Shown: piece after piece, positions 3,464 through 31,535 of the stretch
Layout: every line of letters begins with the position of its first letter
Position numbering within the stretch: the first letter of the stretch is position 1
Made by a program: the position numbers and the translations under genes
The notes under the pieces: generated by a model
Database searches by the model: none
The model's input: the letters and a program-made list of their open reading frames with translations, nothing else
What the model was told of the DNA's origin: nothing
Origin: a virus
Strand: one strand, 5' to 3'
Length of the DNA: 31,759 nucleotides
Virus record (IMG/VR): IMGVR_UViG_3300020446_000046
Span: 1 to 31,759 of that record

Positions 3464-3471
3464 TATTTATA
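3464..3471 (-). promoter_or_regulatory. T4-type late promoter core before the 292-residue gene
   Basis: An exact TATAAATA on the minus strand overlaps the last codons of the upstream fibre gene. The predicted start is about 3458, giving a leader of about 23 bases containing AAGGT before the ATG at 3435. It would drive the 292-residue gene and the kelch-like fibre gene. Confidence 0.65.
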
Positions 3472-4390
3472 GTGGAATGTTTCCTGCATTATTAGATCCC
3501 GCGGTTGATTCATTCGTGTAGCTTGGAGAACTAACACCGGTATTCCATATTTCATAGTTGTAATTTCCACCAGTCCATTGGTTAGATAAAGCGTAAGCAG
3601 TATACACTGTTCCATTCCATTCAACTCCTTGAGGAACAGTAACAACTAGACCTTGGTTACTAAAATTACTAGGAGAAGATGGGTAATTCAACGCGTATCT
3701 CCATGTACCAGGAGTTTGAGATGGCCAGTTAATAGGATACGCAAATCTGCGCTTTGAAAAGTCAGTTGGATCTGTCCACATTATATAAGGATCAGAATTA
3801 CTATTTGCCCATTGTAATGGCGCGCCGCCACCAGGCGCGTATTGAAGAGTTACTAATTTAGAAACAAAACCAATTCCGTCTGACCACTTAAATGTGTAAT
3901 TAACATCTCCATTTGAATCTGGTATATTACCAGCAGCAACCGCCGAACCTACCGCGGCTGCAGTTTTAGGTGTAAATGTAAACACCGAAGAATCAACAGA
4001 TACATCAAGTTTGTACTGAGCAGAATCAGATCCAAAACTTTGATTTACTAAAGTTAAATTAGAATTATCACTGTCAACAGCTTTAGCCGTAATTGTAAGA
4101 GGTGTGGCTGAATCTACGATTTCATACGTAGCGCTTGGTTCTGTTTGCCATCTAGGTGATCTATTAATTAAACCGGCGTTATACCAGCCAACACCATTTG
4201 AAACGTACATTCTTTGATTTGCAGCAACATAGGCTAAGTTACCAGCTGATAACGCGTTTCCTACAGGTAATGAATCTAGCGTTTCATAGTAAACTAATCC
4301 ACTAGCTTCAACGTTGTCCAAGTATTCAGATTGAACATCGCCGTCGTCATCTATAAGTTCGGCTAATAGCCTATTAATACTTTTTCCCAT
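3467..4390 (-). CDS. Short modular fibre protein with shared N-terminal module
   Basis: The product has 307 residues from the ATG at 4390 (MGKSINRLLAELI). A longer in-frame reading to 4483 exists but would overlap the giant upstream gene by 92 bases; the 4390 start lies just past that gene's stop and lines up with the paralogues. Residues ~30-190 are the shared module (ETLDSLP, GVGWYN, VDSATPLTITAKA, SDSAQY, SSVFTFTPKT, FKWSDG). The C-terminal ~115 residues are Asn/Ser/Trp/Tyr-rich with no recognised domain, which makes this the shortest head of the four paralogues. It lies directly after the 1901-residue protein in the same late unit. Virion surface or fibre function is inferred. Confidence 0.7.
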   Translation of the reverse strand: MGKSINRLLAELIDDDGDVQSEYLDNVEASGLVYYETLDSLPVGNALSAGNLAYVAANQRMYVSNGVGWYNAGLINRSPRWQTEPSATYEIVDSATPLTITAKAVDSDNSNLTLVNQSFGSDSAQYKLDVSVDSSVFTFTPKTAAAVGSAVAAGNIPDSNGDVNYTFKWSDGIGFVSKLVTLQYAPGGGAPLQWANSNSDPYIMWTDPTDFSKRRFAYPINWPSQTPGTWRYALNYPSSPSNFSNQGLVVTVPQGVEWNGTVYTAYALSNQWTGGNYNYEIWNTGVSSPSYTNESTAGSNNAGNIPL

Positions 4391-4391
4391 A

Positions 4392-7300
4392 TTAAGCCTG
4401 CGATTCGCCCCATGTAATTCTTGATGATGCAGTAAATGGCTGACTTGCGTTAATTGATGATGTATCAACAACTTGTACAGCAACTGTTAGAATATCAGGC
4501 CCGTTAGGGAAGATACCGTTACCGCCTAAGATTGAGTTACCCATATCAACCAAGTCTCCTAGTGAGAAGTTAGATGTAGATGAAGTACCATCGGCACCAC
4601 CCGAAGCTCTAAAGGAGAATACTTCGTTACCACCAGTAATTTGATCACCTGATTCATGTTTGATCAATTGTGACAATGATGGAGATCTAACATTTTCCCA
4701 AGAAACTGTACTAATATCACCATTTAAGATAAGTTTAACTTCGCAGTCATGCGTTAGAATCATACCAACTTCATTTAGTTTTAACTGCATTCGGTTAATG
4801 ATATCTCTTTCACCTAAATCACCAGTCAAGTTGTTATCAACAGATGGCGCAAGTCTAAGTGACACTAGCGGGATAACGTCTGTACCTAAGTTAACATCAT
4901 CTCCACCTGAAGCTGGTGCACCGATGTTGACTGTAGTTCCGCTACTAACTACTGGATAAGTACCTGAACCTGGAAAGCTATAACCAGAAGATATGTAAAT
5001 GTGAACTCTAAAAGTAGATCCACTATAGTCTGTATACGCAACTTCTTGACCATTCAACTCATTGTTTGAAGTATAGAGTTTTGTACCAGTGTTAAACTTA
5101 GATGCATCACTTGAACTAAACGGTAATCTTACATAGAAGTCATACTGTCTTGTACCTCTATTGTATCTGTAAGATAGAGATGAATTGCCATTAGTGTTAG
5201 CACTATTTGTTTGACCGTTTGTGAATGTTAAGTTTTTCGAAGGAGCAGTAAATAGATATGCATTATCGTCATCAAACGTACCATCCATGATAACCGATGT
5301 ACCCCAATGGAATAGCGTTGGAGCATACGTTGGATTTTCATCGTTTTCAATTTCATACTTAGCAGGTAAGTTACCAGATCTCATATAAGCTTCGTCCAAC
5401 CTGTTGTTGTGAATAAACTCATGAGCATATCTAACGTGACCTTTACGATCTTTAAATCCAAATCTAATTTTACCAGCACCGTACCATGAGTAATCCATGT
5501 ATGCCATTTGAATTTTAGATGTATTTAAATTAAATCCTTGTTTTCCGCTACCATCGCACTTATCTAAGTTCCAATCAGATTGTGCAACTCTAACATCAAC
5601 TGTTTTTGTAAGGATAATACCATCACTGGAAATACCTCTATATTGTGGCTGAACAAACAATTCTGTTCTACTATTAATTTTAACAATCTTATATGTTTGT
5701 CCACGGATAACTACTTTATCATTTCTTACAAGCTGCCCGCTAAAGTTAGTGTTTGTACCTACAATACGTCCACTTCCTTTAACTGCTTCTACTGTACCAG
5801 ATAACTGTGTAGTTGATGAACGTCTTACACAGTGTAGTACAGTGCCATCCCATTCAAAGAAGAATCCGTTTTGGTTATCAAACATACCAGCTCTAACAAA
5901 AGAACCTGAATACCCATTAACTACATACTGTATGATACCTGAAGGAATCGAAGCGTTAGGAGCTTGCGCAGCAGTGTAGGTAAAGTTATAATCATCTACG
6001 ACACTAGCTACTGATTGAACACCATTATACGCACCATCCGATGCACCTTCAATTGTTATTTGCATTCCAACTGCCAGTCTATGAGGATACTTTGTCCTAC
6101 ATCTAACTGTTGTATCTAGCGAGTTAATTGTTTCTAAAATAACAGGTGGGTTGAAGTTAATAGCTAATGATGTTTGAATACCTTTACCTGACTGATAACG
6201 GAAATATTTTCTTGTTTGTCTAGTAATCTGCGAAAGTGGTGCAGTACCAGCGCCAATTTCAACACCACCATCAAATGGTCTGTGTACTGAGTAGCCATCA
6301 GGTTTTGCGTAAATATTAGTTTTTACGAAGTGAGTAGCGTCAGATTTACTAAAGTTAGCCGGTGTTGTAAGTTCCATGTTTTCATCATCTGAAATAACAG
6401 CAATGGTATGCTCATCTAAACGACCTGGAGTTGATGAATCATTCTTAAAGAATATTGTATCACCAGATTTAAAGAATCGTTTAAAGAGTGTTTGGTTACC
6501 AGTAACCTTTTTGGATCCGTCTCTAACAATAACTGTACCAGACGCACCTGTTCTACCAGCAATCGATGTTGTTGTAATCTGATGGAGCTGTGCACCGCCC
6601 GCAGAGTCAGAAGCTAATTGAATTGGATTAATACCAACTATAGCATCTTGTCCGTTACCATGTAAGCTAAGATAGTTATCGTCAATTGCATGTACATAAT
6701 ATGTGTTGCCATTTTGTAAACCACCTAGTCCGCTGTCAGAAGAATGACTGTACACTACCTTTGTACCAGATAAGAAATTGTGTCCACCAAAAGTCTGTAT
6801 GGTAGAAGAATCAGCACTATCGGCTTTTAGTATTTCTGTATTACCTTCAACTAAGAAAGGTGTGTTAAGGGTAATAAATTCATCGCCTACAGATTCAGCA
6901 GAGTAAGATCCATCGGCTGCCCCTTGTACATCAGATAATGCAAACTTCATAAGGTTAGCACTATCAAAACCACTGCCGCTATCTGTTAGGTCTATTAAGG
7001 CTCCAGCATTTGAAACACTAAATCTATTGTTATTAATAACATTAGCAGTTAATGTATCACCTACAGTGAATGATGGATTTAAGAAATTCGCATCAACACC
7101 TTGAATGATAGCGTTAACTAAGTTAACCATTTTGCTGTTATTAAAGTTGAATGATGTGTTACCAGCAAAGAATAGTCTTACAGTAACTTCATCTTGGTTA
7201 TAACTGCTATTGTACAGATATGAATATGAGTTATATGAATTATATCGATAGTTATATGTGTACAATCCGCTACCGTTAGTGCTATAACCGGACCATCCTT

Positions 7301-12764: not shown

Positions 12765-14315
12765 CTATTTGTATACTATAACTAAACTTAAGTTGGCACC
12801 TGCTACTGTAGATCCAACTTGGGTGATATCAACTGTTAAGTAATCACCTGCATTCATTGTTTCTGTTAATCCTGTTAATGATCCACTTGTAGCACCTGCA
12901 GCAATAGAAGGTGTTGCAATAGATGAACCGTTTTTATTTACTCTAAGATTTAAACCGGCACCTGTTGGTGCAGTTTGTACATATGCAGCCATACTTTGTA
13001 ATGTAAGTGATCTTGGCGCATACCATCGTGCAGATCCATTCATTACGTATAATGTTAAGTTTTGAGTAAGTGTAGTATGTTGTTCTGTACTACCAACTCT
13101 TGCTGTTACATAATCTGAATCTATAACAGAGGTGACATCAGCTCTAGAACTTACGTAGTCTGAATCTACGATTGCAGAAACTGAAGCCGAGTCTACGCCA
13201 CTTACTCTAGCATTAATATATGCGGAGTCGATAAGACCTGCAGTGTATGCTGAATCTAATGCTGCGTCTCCAATTACCTCTTCTACTCGAGTTACGAATG
13301 ATGGAGTTAAATCCATGTAGTTTCGTAAATCTTGTGGAACATACTTTGCTTTTGTGCCATTCCATGTTAGACACATTTGTGGTACAATAGTAGGTGATTC
13401 TTTAATTCTTACACGAGTCTTATGCTGTTCTTGTGAATGTTGAAAATATAAGTATGTTTCACCGCTACCACTTGAATCTACTTTTAAATCTTTTATTGTT
13501 ATTGAACCATTCATTGCTTGGTGGTTACCACACTGGTAATCTAATGTGTCAGGCGCATCAGCCGGAACAACGAATGTCATAGTTGCAGTTGTGCCTGAAC
13601 TACCTTGAGCTCTTGAATTTGTAACACCCGAAGTATATTCACCGCCATAACTAGTTGCTGAATATTCTCCGTTACTATCTGTTGTCAAATAAAATGGATG
13701 TCCAGCTGTTGTAGAATCTAGTAAAAATTCGTATGTATTACCTCTATATAAAGGACCTAGTTCCGTGTTATTACCACTGGCGTTTCCGGAAAAAACGTAC
13801 GCGCCAGTAGTAGCACCAACATTATATTGAACTGTGGAGGTATTTAATGTTGGTGGGGTAAACGCGGCAGGAACTGACCACGTTAATCTTTGTGTTTTCT
13901 GAGGTGTTGATGTTACACCTTCAAACGCAATTGTGTTACTACTATCATATGTAACCCAATCAACTAAGTTTGCATCGCCTGGTTCTTCAATCCATTTTAA
14001 TTTTATCAAATGTGTTTGAGTAGAATTTCCATTTGTATTATATGCAGCAAAGTTATCTAGTTGATATGTACCTGCTTTATATAAAGGTATCTCACCTTCA
14101 TTCGATAATGTAATAGGAGCTCGAGCATATGGTAATGTAGTAGGATTCCATGACCACAACCAATGAGCATTCTGACCTGCACCTCGAACATCAACAGCAA
14201 AATTTAATGTTTCAGGTTCTATGGTATTATCAAATAAATTATTAAATTTTTCTACTGCTAATGCACCACTCGAATCTTTTATGGAAGCTGCTAGTTGTCT
14301 ATTTCTTGATACCAT
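12765..14315 (-). CDS. Virion structural protein with cupredoxin-like domain and DSAY repeats
   Basis: The product has 516 residues. Residues 1-155 form an N-terminal domain with a WLWSWNPTTLPYARAPITL signature seen in marine phage structural proteins. Residues ~160-275 look like a cupredoxin: HPFYL (His206), a TFVVPADAPDTLDYQC strand, and C262-x2-H265-x2-M268 in CGNHQAMNGSITI. These are the residues expected of a type 1 copper centre. Residues ~350-407 hold repeats around IDSAYINAR and VIDSDYVTAR. The last ~90 residues look like a beta-sandwich adhesion domain. It starts 2 bases after the tube-fold gene stop. A virion role is inferred from context; copper binding is predicted from the ligand pattern only. 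Confidence 0.75.
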   Translation of the reverse strand: MVSRNRQLAASIKDSSGALAVEKFNNLFDNTIEPETLNFAVDVRGAGQNAHWLWSWNPTTLPYARAPITLSNEGEIPLYKAGTYQLDNFAAYNTNGNSTQTHLIKLKWIEEPGDANLVDWVTYDSSNTIAFEGVTSTPQKTQRLTWSVPAAFTPPTLNTSTVQYNVGATTGAYVFSGNASGNNTELGPLYRGNTYEFLLDSTTAGHPFYLTTDSNGEYSATSYGGEYTSGVTNSRAQGSSGTTATMTFVVPADAPDTLDYQCGNHQAMNGSITIKDLKVDSSGSGETYLYFQHSQEQHKTRVRIKESPTIVPQMCLTWNGTKAKYVPQDLRNYMDLTPSFVTRVEEVIGDAALDSAYTAGLIDSAYINARVSGVDSASVSAIVDSDYVSSRADVTSVIDSDYVTARVGSTEQHTTLTQNLTLYVMNGSARWYAPRSLTLQSMAAYVQTAPTGAGLNLRVNKNGSSIATPSIAAGATSGSLTGLTETMNAGDYLTVDITQVGSTVAGANLSLVIVYK

Positions 14316-14316
14316 A

Positions 14317-14883
14317 TTATTGTCCTACCGTACCTGTAACACTAAAAGAATCTGTAATAGATCCTGTAGTTGCATTAACTGTTTTTAGTTCAAAGTAACT
14401 GAACCTAAATGTAGCTGGAAAGGTTATGAATTCTTGTCCGCCTGCTGTTGATAAGAATTGTATATCTCCTAATGATGTAGGCATTGCATCAACATATCTT
14501 ACTTGTACTGTCGTGTTATTATGACTTGATAGAATAGATAATGTTATGTCTGCATATGTAGGAGGCTTCTCTTTTCTTTGCATGGCTGTATGTGTATCAA
14601 GGTTCGTATGTTGATTCCTTAATATCCAACTATACATCTCTGTATAACTTTCCATGTTTTCATCTAAAAGTATTTCAGCCGATAGTTCATTAATAGTTAA
14701 TGACTCTCCAGGTAAAGGAATAGATTGCATTCTTCTAACCGGTACTTCGGCCGAAGGTATCAGTAATCCTGGATGCGTCACCTGCTGACAGAAGAACTCA
14801 AGGTTAGGAAAGTTCTTTCTATCAATAACTAGCTTAAAACTAGTAGGCTGTAAGTAATTAAAATTTTCTGTTAAGTTGCTCAT
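14317..14883 (-). CDS. Tail-tube-fold protein (gp19/gp54-like), 188 residues
   Basis: The layout parallels the tail tube protein at 20234: an N-terminal SFKLVIDRKNFPNLEFF strand, a QQVTHPG turn (compare VEAAELPG), VPVRRM, LPGESLTINELSAEILLDEN (compare GDRTFAEWTTTIINDTD), then a helix (YTEMYSWILRN) and closing strands. It therefore belongs to the tube-fold superfamily and is most likely a tube-end or baseplate tube protein (T4 has gp48, gp54 and gp3 besides gp19). Which of these it replaces cannot be decided here. It follows gene 23 after a strong terminator and has its own TATAAATA only 6 bases before the ATG. The fold call is firmer than the exact role. Confidence 0.75.
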   Translation of the reverse strand: MSNLTENFNYLQPTSFKLVIDRKNFPNLEFFCQQVTHPGLLIPSAEVPVRRMQSIPLPGESLTINELSAEILLDENMESYTEMYSWILRNQHTNLDTHTAMQRKEKPPTYADITLSILSSHNNTTVQVRYVDAMPTSLGDIQFLSTAGGQEFITFPATFRFSYFELKTVNATTGSITDSFSVTGTVGQ

Positions 14884-20226: not shown

Positions 20227-20234
20227 TATTTATT
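20227..20234 (-). promoter_or_regulatory. Possible degenerate late promoter (AATAAATA) before gene 20
   Basis: AATAAATA on the minus strand is 7/8 identical to TATAAATA and overlaps the stop of gene 19. Initiation with T4 spacing would fall at the first base of the hairpin, giving gene 20 a structured 5' end. Genes 20 and 67 otherwise lack an obvious promoter and would depend on readthrough. Confidence 0.3.
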
Positions 20235-20761
20235 TAAGTTGTAGTATTGGATTCCCAGTACTGGTATGCCCATGTACATGTGAATCTTTCTATATTATCA
20301 TTGTCTCCGAATGACAATGCAATAGGTGAAAGATCTTGTGGGTATGATCCGCGGAAGTTATATGTCTTAATGATATCACCTTCACGGTCCAATTGCTCAA
20401 CTTTTAAATCAGCTTCATAAGCTACCGGTACAGCCAACCCTGTATTTTCATTGTGGTTGTTTATACCATTCATCCAACGCTCTAGAGCATCGCGTATTGC
20501 GAAGTCTGTGTCATTAATGATTGTTGTTGTCCATTCAGCAAATGTACGATCACCAGCCATTTTTAATTGGCGACCTCTGAATGGTACTACAATCTGACCA
20601 AAGGTTGAACCTGGAAGCTCAGCAGCTTCTACTAAGAATGATGTTAGTTCAGGGTTACCATCCGCAAATCCTGGATAGTTAATTGTTACCTGGAACAGAT
20701 TAGGACGAGCGCCCCCACCTCTTAGTTTTGCTTTAAAATCGTCTACTCCTAATATTGCCAT
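20234..20761 (-). CDS. 19: Tail tube protein gp19
   Basis: The product has 175 residues, against 163 in T4. It contains the family pattern ARPNLFQVTINYPG, VEAAELPGSTFGQIVVPFRG, GDRTFAEWTTTIINDTDF and a C-terminal FTCTWAYQYWE. Hexameric rings of this protein form the inner tail tube through which DNA passes. A strong AAGGAGGT Shine-Dalgarno sequence precedes the ATG, fitting a high-copy structural protein. It follows sheath gene 18 after 10 bases and is followed by a hairpin terminator. Confidence 0.96.
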   Translation of the reverse strand: MAILGVDDFKAKLRGGGARPNLFQVTINYPGFADGNPELTSFLVEAAELPGSTFGQIVVPFRGRQLKMAGDRTFAEWTTTIINDTDFAIRDALERWMNGINNHNENTGLAVPVAYEADLKVEQLDREGDIIKTYNFRGSYPQDLSPIALSFGDNDNIERFTCTWAYQYWESNTTT

Positions 20762-24232: not shown

Positions 24233-24551
24233 CTATTACATCATCTTCCTGTCTCAACATTTTTTGAATCTCTGCGGTCGATCCTAAATAAAAATTATTT
24301 TGTTGATTCTCAATCTGTGCAGGCTGTTCATCTTCCTGTGTCAATTGCTTTTGCTTTTTGTTTAAGTCTTGTAGTTTATCATTTACATCTGCTACGTTTT
24401 TTATAAGTCCGGACAAAACCTCATACGCTCGAGGATGTTCACTTGATCGTGCGACATCAATCATATCATCTAAAGCGTCTTTACCTTTTTCAATTAAATT
24501 GTAAAGAGTTTCCTTTGAATACTTATAATCATTATCTAGTTCGTCTGCCAT
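24195..24551 (-). CDS. 16: Terminase small subunit gp16
   Basis: The product has 118 residues, shorter than T4 gp16 (164). The N-terminal half is helical (YSKETLYNLIEKGKDALDDM, RAYEVLSGLIKNVADVND), followed by a Lys/Gln-rich coiled-coil region (LQDLNKKQKQLTQE) and an NFYLGSTAEIQKMLR segment typical of gp16 proteins of marine T4-likes. It forms a ring that recognises concatemeric DNA and regulates gp17. It overlaps gene 17 by 38 bases and shares one base with the stop of the upstream repeat gene. The short length suggests loss of part of the terminal regions seen in T4. Confidence 0.92.
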   Translation of the reverse strand: MADELDNDYKYSKETLYNLIEKGKDALDDMIDVARSSEHPRAYEVLSGLIKNVADVNDKLQDLNKKQKQLTQEDEQPAQIENQQNNFYLGSTAEIQKMLRQEDDVIDANAERIVPRES

Positions 24552-25138
24552 TAGAAGCCTCCGCCACCACCACCAGCAGAATCAAGTATCGTAGCACCAA
24601 TTGTTGATACAACTTTAAATGTGCCACCACTAAATACCGCAAGACATGCATCGCCGGCATTACCATCTGTAACATAAATTAACTGGCCTTCTACTCCAGT
24701 GCTAGGCGCAGATGCAACCGTAAATGGATTTAATAAAACTTGTTTCATTCTTGATTCAATGTGATCAGAATCAATTAAGGCAATTGTTTCAGCAGAATCT
24801 AAAAAATCTTGGTTAGGAGATATTGCTAAAATATAAGCTGAATCAACAATACTAGTAACAAAAGCAGAATCTCGTTGTAGATCTACTTGTCTTGCTTGTA
24901 TATACGCTGAATCAATAAGAGCAATAGCTTCAGATGAATCAAGTGAATTAGCAGCATTTACTCTATTGTTTACATATGCAGAATCAACGATACTTTCTAA
25001 ATATGCAGTATCAACTATTCCTTTTATATAACCGGAATCTCCGGTTGAATCTATTCTTCCGTCAAGGTGAGTGAAATTGGCGTCCAGTTCTGTAAACGTA
25101 AGTTCACTGCCTTTTGTATTTCTAAGTGTAATAGCCAT
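24551..25138 (-). CDS. DSAY-repeat fibre-like protein inserted between genes 15 and 16
   Basis: The product has 195 residues. The N-terminus ITLRNTKGSELTFTELDANF is a common opening of short tail-fibre or structural proteins in marine phages. Residues ~40-130 hold about five repeats centred on I-V/I-D-S-A-Y-h-x-x-R (IVDSAYVNNR, LIDSAYIQAR, SIVDSAYILAI, LIDSDHIESR). The C-terminal part (GQLIYVTDGNAGDACLAVFS, GGTFKVV) resembles a small beta domain, ending in six glycines and Phe. AAGGAG sits 6 bases before the ATG. T4 has no gene here. A virion fibre or whisker role is inferred; the repeat also occurs in the cupredoxin-containing protein at 12765. Confidence 0.75.
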   Translation of the reverse strand: MAITLRNTKGSELTFTELDANFTHLDGRIDSTGDSGYIKGIVDTAYLESIVDSAYVNNRVNAANSLDSSEAIALIDSAYIQARQVDLQRDSAFVTSIVDSAYILAISPNQDFLDSAETIALIDSDHIESRMKQVLLNPFTVASAPSTGVEGQLIYVTDGNAGDACLAVFSGGTFKVVSTIGATILDSAGGGGGGF

Positions 25139-27954: not shown

Positions 27955-29559
27955 TTAATCTGTCCAGATTATCCACATTCCATGACCAGCGCGAGGATTA
28001 AGTCCTGTATTACCTGGGCTAGCCGGAGTTGGGTAGCTTGTAGGATTTGTGGCCTGCGAACCTTGACCATATTTACCAATAGGTCCTGAAGTAAAATCTG
28101 TCGCACCACTTTGTTGTCGAACATAATTCATTAAAGTATACTGGTTCCAATTTGCACCAGTTTGAGTTGCATCAGAACCATTATACTGTAGTAACGTTAC
28201 ATAGTTTGCATCTGCCCAACCAGATCCACCGCCACCTGGTCCACCAGTTCTGTAGTAGCCTCCACCACCACCTCCTCCGCCGTAACGGCCACCGCCTCCA
28301 CCTGATCCACCATCATATTGTGAATCAGATCCATCTCCACCTTGTAATTGAGATCCAGCAGTTGCGTTAGATGAGGAGTAAGAGTGTGACTCATATGCAG
28401 CATGCCCACCACTATTTACATTACCACCTCCACCATAATCTAGTGTAGGAGATCCAGTTCCATTTGTACCACCTTGATTAATACCGCCACCGTGTCCACC
28501 TTTAAAGTTAGTAGAGTTGCCTCCACCTCCGCCTCCACCAACTATTGCAACAAGGTCAGAAAATGTATTGTTTATGCCAGAAAAGAGCGCAGTGTAACCG
28601 CCACCTCCAACACTAAAATGATAAGATCCACTAGAGCCAGGATCACCCCCACCATAAAATCCATCATCACCACTACTTGCACCCTTACCTCCGCCACCTG
28701 CGTATAATGACATTTGAGTTACGCCTGGTGGTACAGTAACTTCTACCATGCCAACTCCACCATTGCCACCATAATTGGCGCGGTTAGAACTTGAATAACC
28801 TGATCCACCACCTGCACCTATCATCGCAAGATAAAATTTTCCTCCGGGTTCAGTATCAAAGTATGCTCTTGTACCTAAAGCATTATCTGGGTTTACCACT
28901 TGATTACTATAATAAAATGTTTGACCAGTTACAGATGACGTAAAACTACCTACTGTAATTCCTCCATTTTGTTCAGTAGGAGAAGATGAAAATCCTACAC
29001 CTGGAGCTCCAGGATTATATGCTATTGTAACAGCTTTTGATATAATGCTTATTCCATCTGACCATTTAAACGTATAGATGAAGTCACCGTTAGAGTCTGT
29101 TAAATTTCCTGCTGCAACCGCAGCCGCTATCTCGTTTTTTGTTTTAGGTGTAAACGTCCATACTGAAGAGTCATTGGATATAGTTGACATGTATTGAGCT
29201 GAATCACTTGCAAAACTTTGATTCAGCAATGTTGGATTATCAGAATCTGCAGGTTTAGCTATAATAGTAAGAGGAGTAGCCGAATCTGTAATTTCATATT
29301 CAGCACTTGGTTCGTTATCCCATGTTGGTGCTGCACTTGCTTCAAAATCTAGATTGTACCAACCTGATCCATTTGAAACAAATAATCTTTTGGTGCTTTC
29401 AACAAATGCAGCGTCACCTTTAGTAAGTCCTGAAACAGGTAAACTATCTAATGATGAGTAATAAACAACATCTCCACTGGTGACATTACTTAGACCAGTT
29501 GATTTTATATCACCGGTTGATCCAATTAATCCTGCTATTCTTCTGTTAAAACTAGTCAT
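27955..29559 (-). CDS. Modular fibre protein with shared N-terminal module and glycine-rich C-terminal head
   Basis: The product has 534 residues. Residues ~30-190 are the shared module (SSLDSLPVSGL, NGSGWYN, ITDSATPLTIIAKPADSDN, SSVWTFTPKT, DSNGDFIYTFKWSDG). Residues ~225-480 form a glycine-rich domain with runs of GGGG and a VEVTVPPGVTQMSLYAGGGG strand motif, the pattern of glycine-rich fibre or adhesin domains in phages and bacteria. The C-terminus ends GHGMWIIWTD. Glycine-rich heads of tail-fibre adhesins are known to mediate receptor contact in T-even phages, so host binding is a reasonable inference. The ATG overlaps the upstream stop as ATGA. Confidence 0.78.
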   Translation of the reverse strand: MTSFNRRIAGLIGSTGDIKSTGLSNVTSGDVVYYSSLDSLPVSGLTKGDAAFVESTKRLFVSNGSGWYNLDFEASAAPTWDNEPSAEYEITDSATPLTIIAKPADSDNPTLLNQSFASDSAQYMSTISNDSSVWTFTPKTKNEIAAAVAAGNLTDSNGDFIYTFKWSDGISIISKAVTIAYNPGAPGVGFSSSPTEQNGGITVGSFTSSVTGQTFYYSNQVVNPDNALGTRAYFDTEPGGKFYLAMIGAGGGSGYSSSNRANYGGNGGVGMVEVTVPPGVTQMSLYAGGGGKGASSGDDGFYGGGDPGSSGSYHFSVGGGGYTALFSGINNTFSDLVAIVGGGGGGGNSTNFKGGHGGGINQGGTNGTGSPTLDYGGGGNVNSGGHAAYESHSYSSSNATAGSQLQGGDGSDSQYDGGSGGGGGRYGGGGGGGGYYRTGGPGGGGSGWADANYVTLLQYNGSDATQTGANWNQYTLMNYVRQQSGATDFTSGPIGKYGQGSQATNPTSYPTPASPGNTGLNPRAGHGMWIIWTD

Positions 29560-31535
29560 AGTGTGCTAATATTTTCTGAAGAAACTGTAAGAGCTACAGT
29601 TGGTTCTATTGCGTAACTACCGCTGTTATAGTTAACAGTTTGAAATAAACTTCCAACATCAGTTCCAGAATAACTAACAAAGGTTAGAGCGCTTGGAGTA
29701 TGTGTGGCTTCCTCAGCTGTTTGATTAGAAATTATAAGATCACCGTAAGTTCCTGCAGTATCTAAAATAGATGTAGGCATTTTAATAGGTGATTGCTCAG
29801 TAGAAACACCACTGTAGTAGTGATAAAAGTTCATCAGTAAACTTCCATCTGAAGCAATTTGTAAAGCATTCCGCGACATGCTAAACTTATAGTTAGATAC
29901 ATTAGTATCAATCCCCCATTGATTCTGAATCGTTCCATTACTAGAATATTTACGTAGTTTAATTCTTGAAGGTGATTCATCCGCATCAATACTAAGTACC
30001 CATACGTTATCATTATTATCTATCGCAAGACCTTGATGACCCTCACCTTCATGTTTTTTACCCCATACTATACTACCATTATTCTTATTAAGTTTAAGCA
30101 ATGTTGCCGCTTCGGGATTAATATTATCATCGGTATGACCTACTATATATGGATTATTATTTGCATCTACTCTTACTATATATGCATTATCATCCTTATA
30201 CCAGTCATTTACACCATACATCTTAGCCCACTGAAAAGTCATCGAACTATTGAATTTTGCTATCAACATGGATGGAAAACCATAACCTGAGTGATCACGA
30301 TATTGTGCACCACAGACATAAATGTTATCATCTCCATCTATTACTATACTTTGGTCGCTTGCCTGCTCATCAGTATTGGAATTTAATTTCCACATTCCCA
30401 TTAAGGCACCAGTGCTTCCGTTTAGTTTTGCAATATAAAACTTTCTAATGGAGGTGTCACGCAATTGTTGACTTCCAACTGCTCCACTACCACCTCTTCT
30501 GCTAGTTCCTAGTACCCATAGATTACCAGAACTATCTAGTTGACCGCCACCTGGCTCAGGAACAAAGTTGTCATAATTAGTAGTAGTGGTAGTTGGTTTT
30601 ATTATCTTTGCCCACGTAATAGCACCTGCAGATGTCCATTTAATTGCCAGTGCTAACTGAGGATCAGGGTATCCCGACATGTTTTCTCCATACCCATAGT
30701 CGGCAGTCACCGTATAGGCAGAGGTTGAATCTGATGTAACGGTTTTTGGTCTGGCATAGTATGCATTAGCGTTTAAAGTTTTTCCCCACTGTGCCTCACC
30801 AGCAGAATTATACTTTGCTAAAAATGAGTTATTACTGCCACCAAAAACGTAAATATCACCGTTTGGCGCTTCAGAAATTCCTCGTCCTACCGAGGGAGAA
30901 ACAGTATACAGTAATCTATTCCACCAACCGGCCGCACCTGCAGTATTATATACAATAGTCACTGCTTTAGCTACGAAATTAGTTCCGTCTGACCATTTAA
31001 ATGTATAAACGAAATCACCGTTAGAATCTGTTAAGTTACCAGCTGATATTGCTGCAGCTAGTTGTGCTTTTGTTTTTGGTGTAAAAGTAAATACTGATGA
31101 ATCATTTGTTACAGTAGCCATATATTGCGCAGAGTCAGAACCAAAGCTTTGATTAACTAGGTTGGGATTATCCGAGTCATTTGCTTTTGCTATGATGATA
31201 AGAGGAGTTGCTGAGTCAATTATTGTTTTATCACTATCGCCTGGTTCTATTTCCCAATAAGGCGAAGAACTAATAACGTACTGTGTGTTGTACCAACCAG
31301 ATCCATTTGAAACATAATGTCTTCGATTGGCGTTAACAAAAGCTTGTTGACCTATTTCTAAATTATTTCCAGGAAGAGAATCTAGTGTATCAACATATAA
31401 CATAGGCACTGATTGAACGGCCGCAGAATCCATGCCACCACCTAAATCAGCAGAAGTAGTTATTAATCTAGAATTATTAGGATTATCGATCTCCGTAGCA
31501 CGAAGTATCTTAGCAATGTCTAATGACCTACTCAT
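29556..31535 (-). CDS. Modular fibre protein with shared N-terminal module and beta-propeller head
   Basis: The product has 659 residues. Residues ~45-200 are the shared module (DTLDSLPG, NGSGWYN, IIDSATPLIIIAKANDSDNP, GSDSAQY, SSVFTFTPKT, DFVYTFKWSDG). Residues ~205-560 contain repeated blades of the type D-x-x-x-N-x-Y/W-V-x-G followed by h-A-K-h-N-x-x-G-x-x-x-W-x-K (for example NGDIYVFGGSNNSFLAKYNS, DNIYVCGAQYR, NNPYIVGHTDD, DNVWVLSIDADE), resembling SBBP-type beta-propellers. The last ~100 residues look beta-rich. GAGGGA precedes the ATG at 31535. A fibre or receptor-binding role is inferred; propellers often bind sugars or proteins. Confidence 0.78.
   Translation of the reverse strand: MSRSLDIAKILRATEIDNPNNSRLITTSADLGGGMDSAAVQSVPMLYVDTLDSLPGNNLEIGQQAFVNANRRHYVSNGSGWYNTQYVISSSPYWEIEPGDSDKTIIDSATPLIIIAKANDSDNPNLVNQSFGSDSAQYMATVTNDSSVFTFTPKTKAQLAAAISAGNLTDSNGDFVYTFKWSDGTNFVAKAVTIVYNTAGAAGWWNRLLYTVSPSVGRGISEAPNGDIYVFGGSNNSFLAKYNSAGEAQWGKTLNANAYYARPKTVTSDSTSAYTVTADYGYGENMSGYPDPQLALAIKWTSAGAITWAKIIKPTTTTTNYDNFVPEPGGGQLDSSGNLWVLGTSRRGGSGAVGSQQLRDTSIRKFYIAKLNGSTGALMGMWKLNSNTDEQASDQSIVIDGDDNIYVCGAQYRDHSGYGFPSMLIAKFNSSMTFQWAKMYGVNDWYKDDNAYIVRVDANNNPYIVGHTDDNINPEAATLLKLNKNNGSIVWGKKHEGEGHQGLAIDNNDNVWVLSIDADESPSRIKLRKYSSNGTIQNQWGIDTNVSNYKFSMSRNALQIASDGSLLMNFYHYYSGVSTEQSPIKMPTSILDTAGTYGDLIISNQTAEEATHTPSALTFVSYSGTDVGSLFQTVNYNSGSYAIEPTVALTVSSENISTL

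Follow-up and report, generated by a model that had tools for sequence, protein, structure and literature searches.

Domain architecture of a tail-fibre-type protein

The window, i.e., the whole stretch of 31,759 nucleotides that was analysed (positions 1 to 31,759 of the IMG/VR virus record IMGVR_UViG_3300020446_000046), carries on its minus strand an open reading frame (ORF; 12765-14315), which encodes a tail-fibre-type protein of 516 amino acids of a marine T4-like phage. The ORF starts with ATG and is translated without an internal stop; the plus strand of this region is full of stops, and the reading frame is open on the minus strand only. The gene order major capsid protein, tail-tube-like gene, ORF 12765-14315 is kept in relatives at 53-100% identity, and the gene is duplicated in tandem in some relatives (L061, L072, L076 and L077).

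All features of the ORF lie on the minus strand. A first domain (residues 28-156; 13848-14234) was recognised by an hhalign comparison with the copper-type domain and by Foldseek matches to laccases. It is followed by a cupredoxin domain with a type 1 ligand set (residues 157-283; 13467-13847), which was delimited using the predicted structure and structural matches. The codon of the predicted first copper ligand, H206, lies at 13698-13700 within the motif GHPFYL and is invariant in the alignments A1, A2, A3 and A4, the third of which was rebuilt without five rows from phage records. The C-terminal ligand loop, C262-x2-H265-x2-M268 (13512-13532), has the spacing of amicyanin and was identified by a pattern match, its invariance and loop alignments. 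Model secondary structure and alignment A2 define a small beta element (residues 287-328; 13332-13457), in which Q292 and H293 are invariant and H298 and C315 nearly so in the same alignment; this element is perhaps a second metal site or a structural site. A linker with DSAY-type repeats, visible in the translation, comes next (residues 330-411; 13083-13328) and is modelled with low confidence (pLDDT mostly <50 in the full-length model).

The C-terminal end of the protein forms a C1q/TNF-like head (residues 412-516; 12768-13082), which matches gC1q domains with a Foldseek probability of 1.00 and the tail fibre of Agrobacterium phage 7-7-1 (9rkv_O) with a Z score of 9.6 over 110 residues. C1q/TNF-like heads are typical of trimeric fibre tips, and the ORF product thus ends in a head of the trimerising kind, as is found in trimeric tail fibres. 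The ORF product thus resembles a tail fibre or a baseplate-attached adhesin that would be trimeric, and architecture, synteny and homology suggest that it is part of the virion.

Further features were noted in other genes of the window. A second tail-tube-like gene (phrog_45; 14317-14883, minus strand) lies beside the major capsid gene, and the other one is found at 20234-20761. DSAY-type short repeats are present at 24551-25138 as well as in the linker (13083-13328, minus strand) and are recurrent in the fibre-like proteins of this phage. Four ORFs on the minus strand (1125-2588, 3467-4483, 27955-29559 and 29556-31535) have an N-terminal module of about 200 amino acids in common, which contains the motifs GWYN, DSATPL, DSAQY and KWSDG; their C-terminal parts differ, and one of them is glycine-rich.

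The cupredoxin domain and its predicted copper site

The initial annotation had placed a cupredoxin-like domain with flanking strands of plastocyanin/azurin type at residues ~160-275. Single-sequence searches of Pfam and of PDB sequences gave no match. Structure prediction and structural comparison, which had been proposed as a check, indicate with high confidence that the domain is a cupredoxin: the AlphaFold2 model of residues 155-284, built from 38 aligned sequences, has a pLDDT of 89 and a pTM of 0.84, and the best solved match is 2dv6_A (Z 11.1, 2.4 Å, 100 residues). The matching part of 2dv6_A is the N-terminal cupredoxin domain of the three-domain copper nitrite reductase of Hyphomicrobium. 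The domain model further matches rusticyanin with a Z score of 10.0, and all 50 matches listed are cupredoxin (copper) proteins. The domain is thus predicted to form a Greek-key beta barrel, its model can be superposed on solved cupredoxins, and this part of the annotation is supported; neither plastocyanin nor azurin, however, is the closest solved relative, but rusticyanin and the nitrite reductase domain are. The phage domain shares its fold with these two proteins over 100-106 residues (2.4-2.7 Å, Z 10-11), but the identity is only ~20% and its ligand loop is shorter. Moreover, rusticyanin and the 2dv6 protein are periplasmic redox proteins or enzymes, whereas the domain of the window is a module of a viral fibre. 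In a BFVD fold search, the fold of the domain was also matched by beta-sandwich proteins from records of Marseillevirus LCMAC and Pithovirus LCPAC.

The matched ranges also bear on the ligands. In the full-length model, residues 159-275 superpose on residues 35-155 of the rusticyanin chain (Z 10.3-10.8, 105 residues). The aligned range ends seven residues past M268 in the model and likewise seven past Met148 in rusticyanin, which places Met268 on Met148 provided that there is no gap in the last strand. Counted from the aligned start, H206 comes after 47 residues and rusticyanin His85, a copper ligand, after 50, i.e., within three residues. Judged from the model, the ranges are consistent with M268 lying on rusticyanin Met148 and H206 near the first histidine ligand. 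The sequence follows the order and loop lengths of type 1 copper sites (His...Cys-x(2-5)-His-x(2-5)-Met) with H206, C262, H265 and M268, and the ligand loop aligns with the C-H-M loops of the nitrite reductase 9cck and of the cyanophage plastocyanin PetE.

The His/Cys/His/Met ligand set of the initial annotation, including its numbering (H206 in GHPFYL and C262-GN-H265-QA-M268), was confirmed, and it is nearly universally conserved. At the DNA level, the pattern C-x2-H-x2-M is not unusual, with one match in the window versus 1.55 expected. Among protein sequences it is rare (8 occurrences in 3,773 unrelated ORFs with 499,363 residues in total), and none of these 3,773 ORFs contains the pattern with HP[FLIM] 35-80 residues upstream. 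It is the conservation of the motif that raises it above chance. In an alignment of 43 sequences, some of which had been retrieved with motif-containing patterns, only H206, P207, G230, Y260, C262, H265 and M268 are invariant, and the four ligands are invariant across sequences down to 27% identity. A second, motif-independent set comprises copies obtained via tblastn or HMM that cover both ligand regions (loci L089-L092, L114-L125, L137-L156 and L166-L168, with the two halves of L156 joined and three short fragments left out). All four ligands are present in 38 of its 43 copies, three of which have a loop that is one or two residues longer; the site is lost in three copies and one ligand is missing in two. 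In L146, the His, Cys and His residues are jointly replaced by F, A and V. The joint loss of several ligands is what would be expected of residues that act together in a single metal site.

Residues 28-156, the first domain, match the copper-type domain with an hhalign probability of 89% and an E-value of 2e-6 in a single comparison, but lack a cysteine and a methionine loop and contain one invariant histidine, H102. By its sequence, this domain is a diverged, ligand-poor paralogue of the cupredoxin domain, and the two are arranged in tandem within the protein. The earlier view that the fold is not simply a decayed one consequently applies to the second domain, whose ligands are invariant; the first domain is accepted as decayed. 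The tandem arrangement also accounts for the laccases among the top Foldseek matches of the full model, which span 316-356 columns. An identity as a multicopper oxidase or laccase was rejected: the overall rmsd is 18-20 Å, and the first domain has no cysteine and a single invariant histidine.

The fold neighbours of the domain are electron-transfer proteins and copper oxidases, which would suit a redox role of the site, either in electron transfer with the host surface or in a copper-driven oxidation during entry. Nevertheless, such a role is very unlikely, since type 2 or type 3 copper ligands or a partner domain were not recognised in the protein, the paired first domain is ligand-poor, and electron transfer needs a partner, none of which is apparent in the fibre.

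Family relationships and distribution of the domain

The Pfam search for cupredoxin profiles, likewise proposed with the initial annotation, left the domain of the window below the cut-offs of both relevant families: it scores 13.2 bits for PF00127 (plastocyanin/azurin; gathering cut-off 21.2) and 13.5 bits for PF25489 (At5g54830-like; cut-off 27). Among its 43 relatives, 25 match PF25489 at E<=1, the best with 3.5e-7. The domain resembles amicyanin in the C-x2-H-x2-M loop spacing and in local profile matches, but the best member reaches an E-value of only 1.1e-4 with the amicyanin model TIGR02657 (NCBIfam), far below the equivalog cut-off of 110.2 bits. The domain belongs to a cupredoxin family in its own right, whose loop is of the amicyanin type and which occurs as a module of marine phage tail proteins and of exported bacterial proteins. 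The C-terminal domain of gp9, the baseplate wedge-tail fibre connector of cyanophages (phrog_677), is the same cupredoxin-type domain. However, residues 121-276 of the window protein match only positions 262-410 of the 412 positions of the phrog_677 profile; the rest of gp9 is unmatched, and the window protein is of another architecture.

A copper-type domain in a phage particle had been called unexpected, but the domain is widespread in marine phages. Using the copy of P-SSM2 as query, tblastn detected it in 351 phage records, which are nearly all marine cyanophages and comprise Synechococcus, Prochlorococcus, cyanophage, 'marine' and Pelagibacter phages as well as one uncultured record. In most of the matches listed, it makes up the C-terminal end of gp9 (phrog_677), whose annotation is baseplate wedge-tail fibre connector; the carrier proteins of isolates bear this annotation or that of a tail fibre or tail spike. 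All 30 tested virus records already known to carry the domain contain one to four matching places. It is present with four ligands each in the controls Melnitz, Mosig and C48C1 and was not found, at the search sensitivity used, in T4, KVP40, HTVC008M, the freshwater cyanophage S-CRM01, DLP6 and phiN3.

The same four ligands are kept in exported single-domain proteins of bacteria (Verrucomicrobia, Proteobacteria and others). Judged by eye, five of these proteins have signal-peptide-like starts (L099, L101, L106, L108 and L110) and one has a lipoprotein-like start (L102). Going by their sequences, exported relatives with a full ligand set are what would be expected of extracytoplasmic copper proteins. 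The contigs L095, L096, L098 and L100 from metagenome-assembled genomes (MAGs) look like phage tail genes that were binned with bacteria.

A rival explanation is that the particle contains no copper: the residues could be kept for another metal such as zinc, for a thiol function or by descent in a recombining module. In its favour, the cytoplasm in which phage proteins are synthesised has hardly any free copper, so that zinc could occupy the site, and the module is mobile among tail proteins. This explanation is rather unlikely, as His-Cys-His-Met with an axial methionine is the classical copper set and all four ligands are retained both in sequences down to 27% identity and in the exported bacterial proteins. 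Overall, the domain is likely to bind a metal, and this metal is probably copper.

Cyanophages are known to carry petE as a metabolic gene (PMC3037559, PMC2984593). The tail-type domain has the same four ligand types as cyanophage PetE, and loop and histidine align; the global alignment of the two is weak (E 0.13), yet all four ligands are paired. A captured host plastocyanin was rejected as the source of the virion domain for three reasons. PetE proteins score 67-78 bits for PF00127 and the virion copies of the same phages <20; a separate petE gene is located elsewhere in the genome in 9 of 16 phages tested; and PetE forms one clade in the tree, on a very long and fully supported branch (3.6 changes per site). 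This tree, which is based on few columns, contains six changes of label between phage and bacteria, two of which are forced, and is compatible with one as well as with several acquisitions of the domain by phages from bacteria.

Possible roles of a bound metal

HxH motifs that hold iron have been described in phage tail fibres and discussed as a route to receptors (PMC11705849), and this precedent, together with the presence of the domain in tail fibre, baseplate and spike proteins, would support a role at the host surface. The metal or the domain might be recognised by an outer-membrane metal receptor or might bridge surface ligands, by analogy to the Trojan (Ferrojan) horse that has been proposed for iron. 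The iron fibres of T4 (gp37) and alterophage R22Y resemble the window protein in having a transition-metal site in a tail fibre (PMC11705849); their site, however, is an octahedral histidine site along the fibre trimer and not a cupredoxin. The domain occurs in marine phages that infect cyanobacteria, Pelagibacter and Methylophilales and was not found in T4, KVP40 and S-CRM01, which would also fit a host-related function. On the other hand, the presumed tip of the fibre is the C1q-like head and not the copper domain, the domain is found in proteins of several architectures and positions, and the pelagiphage HTVC008M lacks it. To our knowledge, no receptor for a fibre-borne copper domain is known. 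A host-surface role is therefore considered unlikely.

The preferred explanation is that of a stabilised spacer. Each chain of the trimeric fibre would contain two tandem cupredoxin-like domains, the first of which would have lost its metal site and serve as a spacer, while the second would have retained a type 1 copper site formed by H206, C262, H265 and M268. Folding and assembly would take place in the host cytoplasm without copper, and one copper ion per chain would be taken up after lysis in oxic seawater. The bound metal would then lend stability to its end of the barrel, in a fibre that stays exposed for a long time outside the cell. Seawater contains little dissolved copper, most of which is complexed by organic ligands, so that loading may be incomplete. 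Ligand-free copies of the domain, including the first domain of the ORF itself, speak against the stabilised spacer, since they indicate that the fold itself does not depend on copper. Weighing these points, stability or structure has close to an even chance of being the main role, and the explanation as a whole, with tandem domains, copper uptake after lysis and a trimeric fibre, falls just short of probable. The stabilising role is proposed by analogy, and the present evidence does not distinguish it from a host-surface role.

A large share of the sequenced marine T4-like cyanophages have a conserved, apparently intact putative copper site in their tail proteins. It could be speculated that the particles of many marine phages (cyanophages as well as some pelagiphages and methylophages) are copper metalloparticles, with type 1 sites on baseplate and tail fibre proteins, that the copper is picked up in seawater and matters for entry, and that these viruses form part of the ocean's pool of copper-binding ligands; this broader proposal is rather unlikely. 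If the sites of the tail proteins do hold copper, the metal would be a component of some of the ocean's most abundant particles and would join iron, which is already known in phage fibres. No published description of a cupredoxin or of copper in phage tails was found in the open-access literature searched, in which virion proteomes of cyanophages are available (PMC3037559, PMC9602691).

Two observations concern individual cyanophage genes. In S-SCSM2R, the protein annotated as PetE (XQU50115.1; L114:2794-3300) is a tail-type domain, and the true plastocyanin is located at record positions 79-321; the name PetE (plastocyanin) on a phage gene may hence hide a tail protein and not a photosynthesis gene. 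A large gene adjoining gp9 (L124:3319-6306, L125:3319-6312 and L121:3301-6291) contains a diverged copy of the domain with GHP and C-x2-H-x2-M, and the same gene has an additional ligand-less copy.
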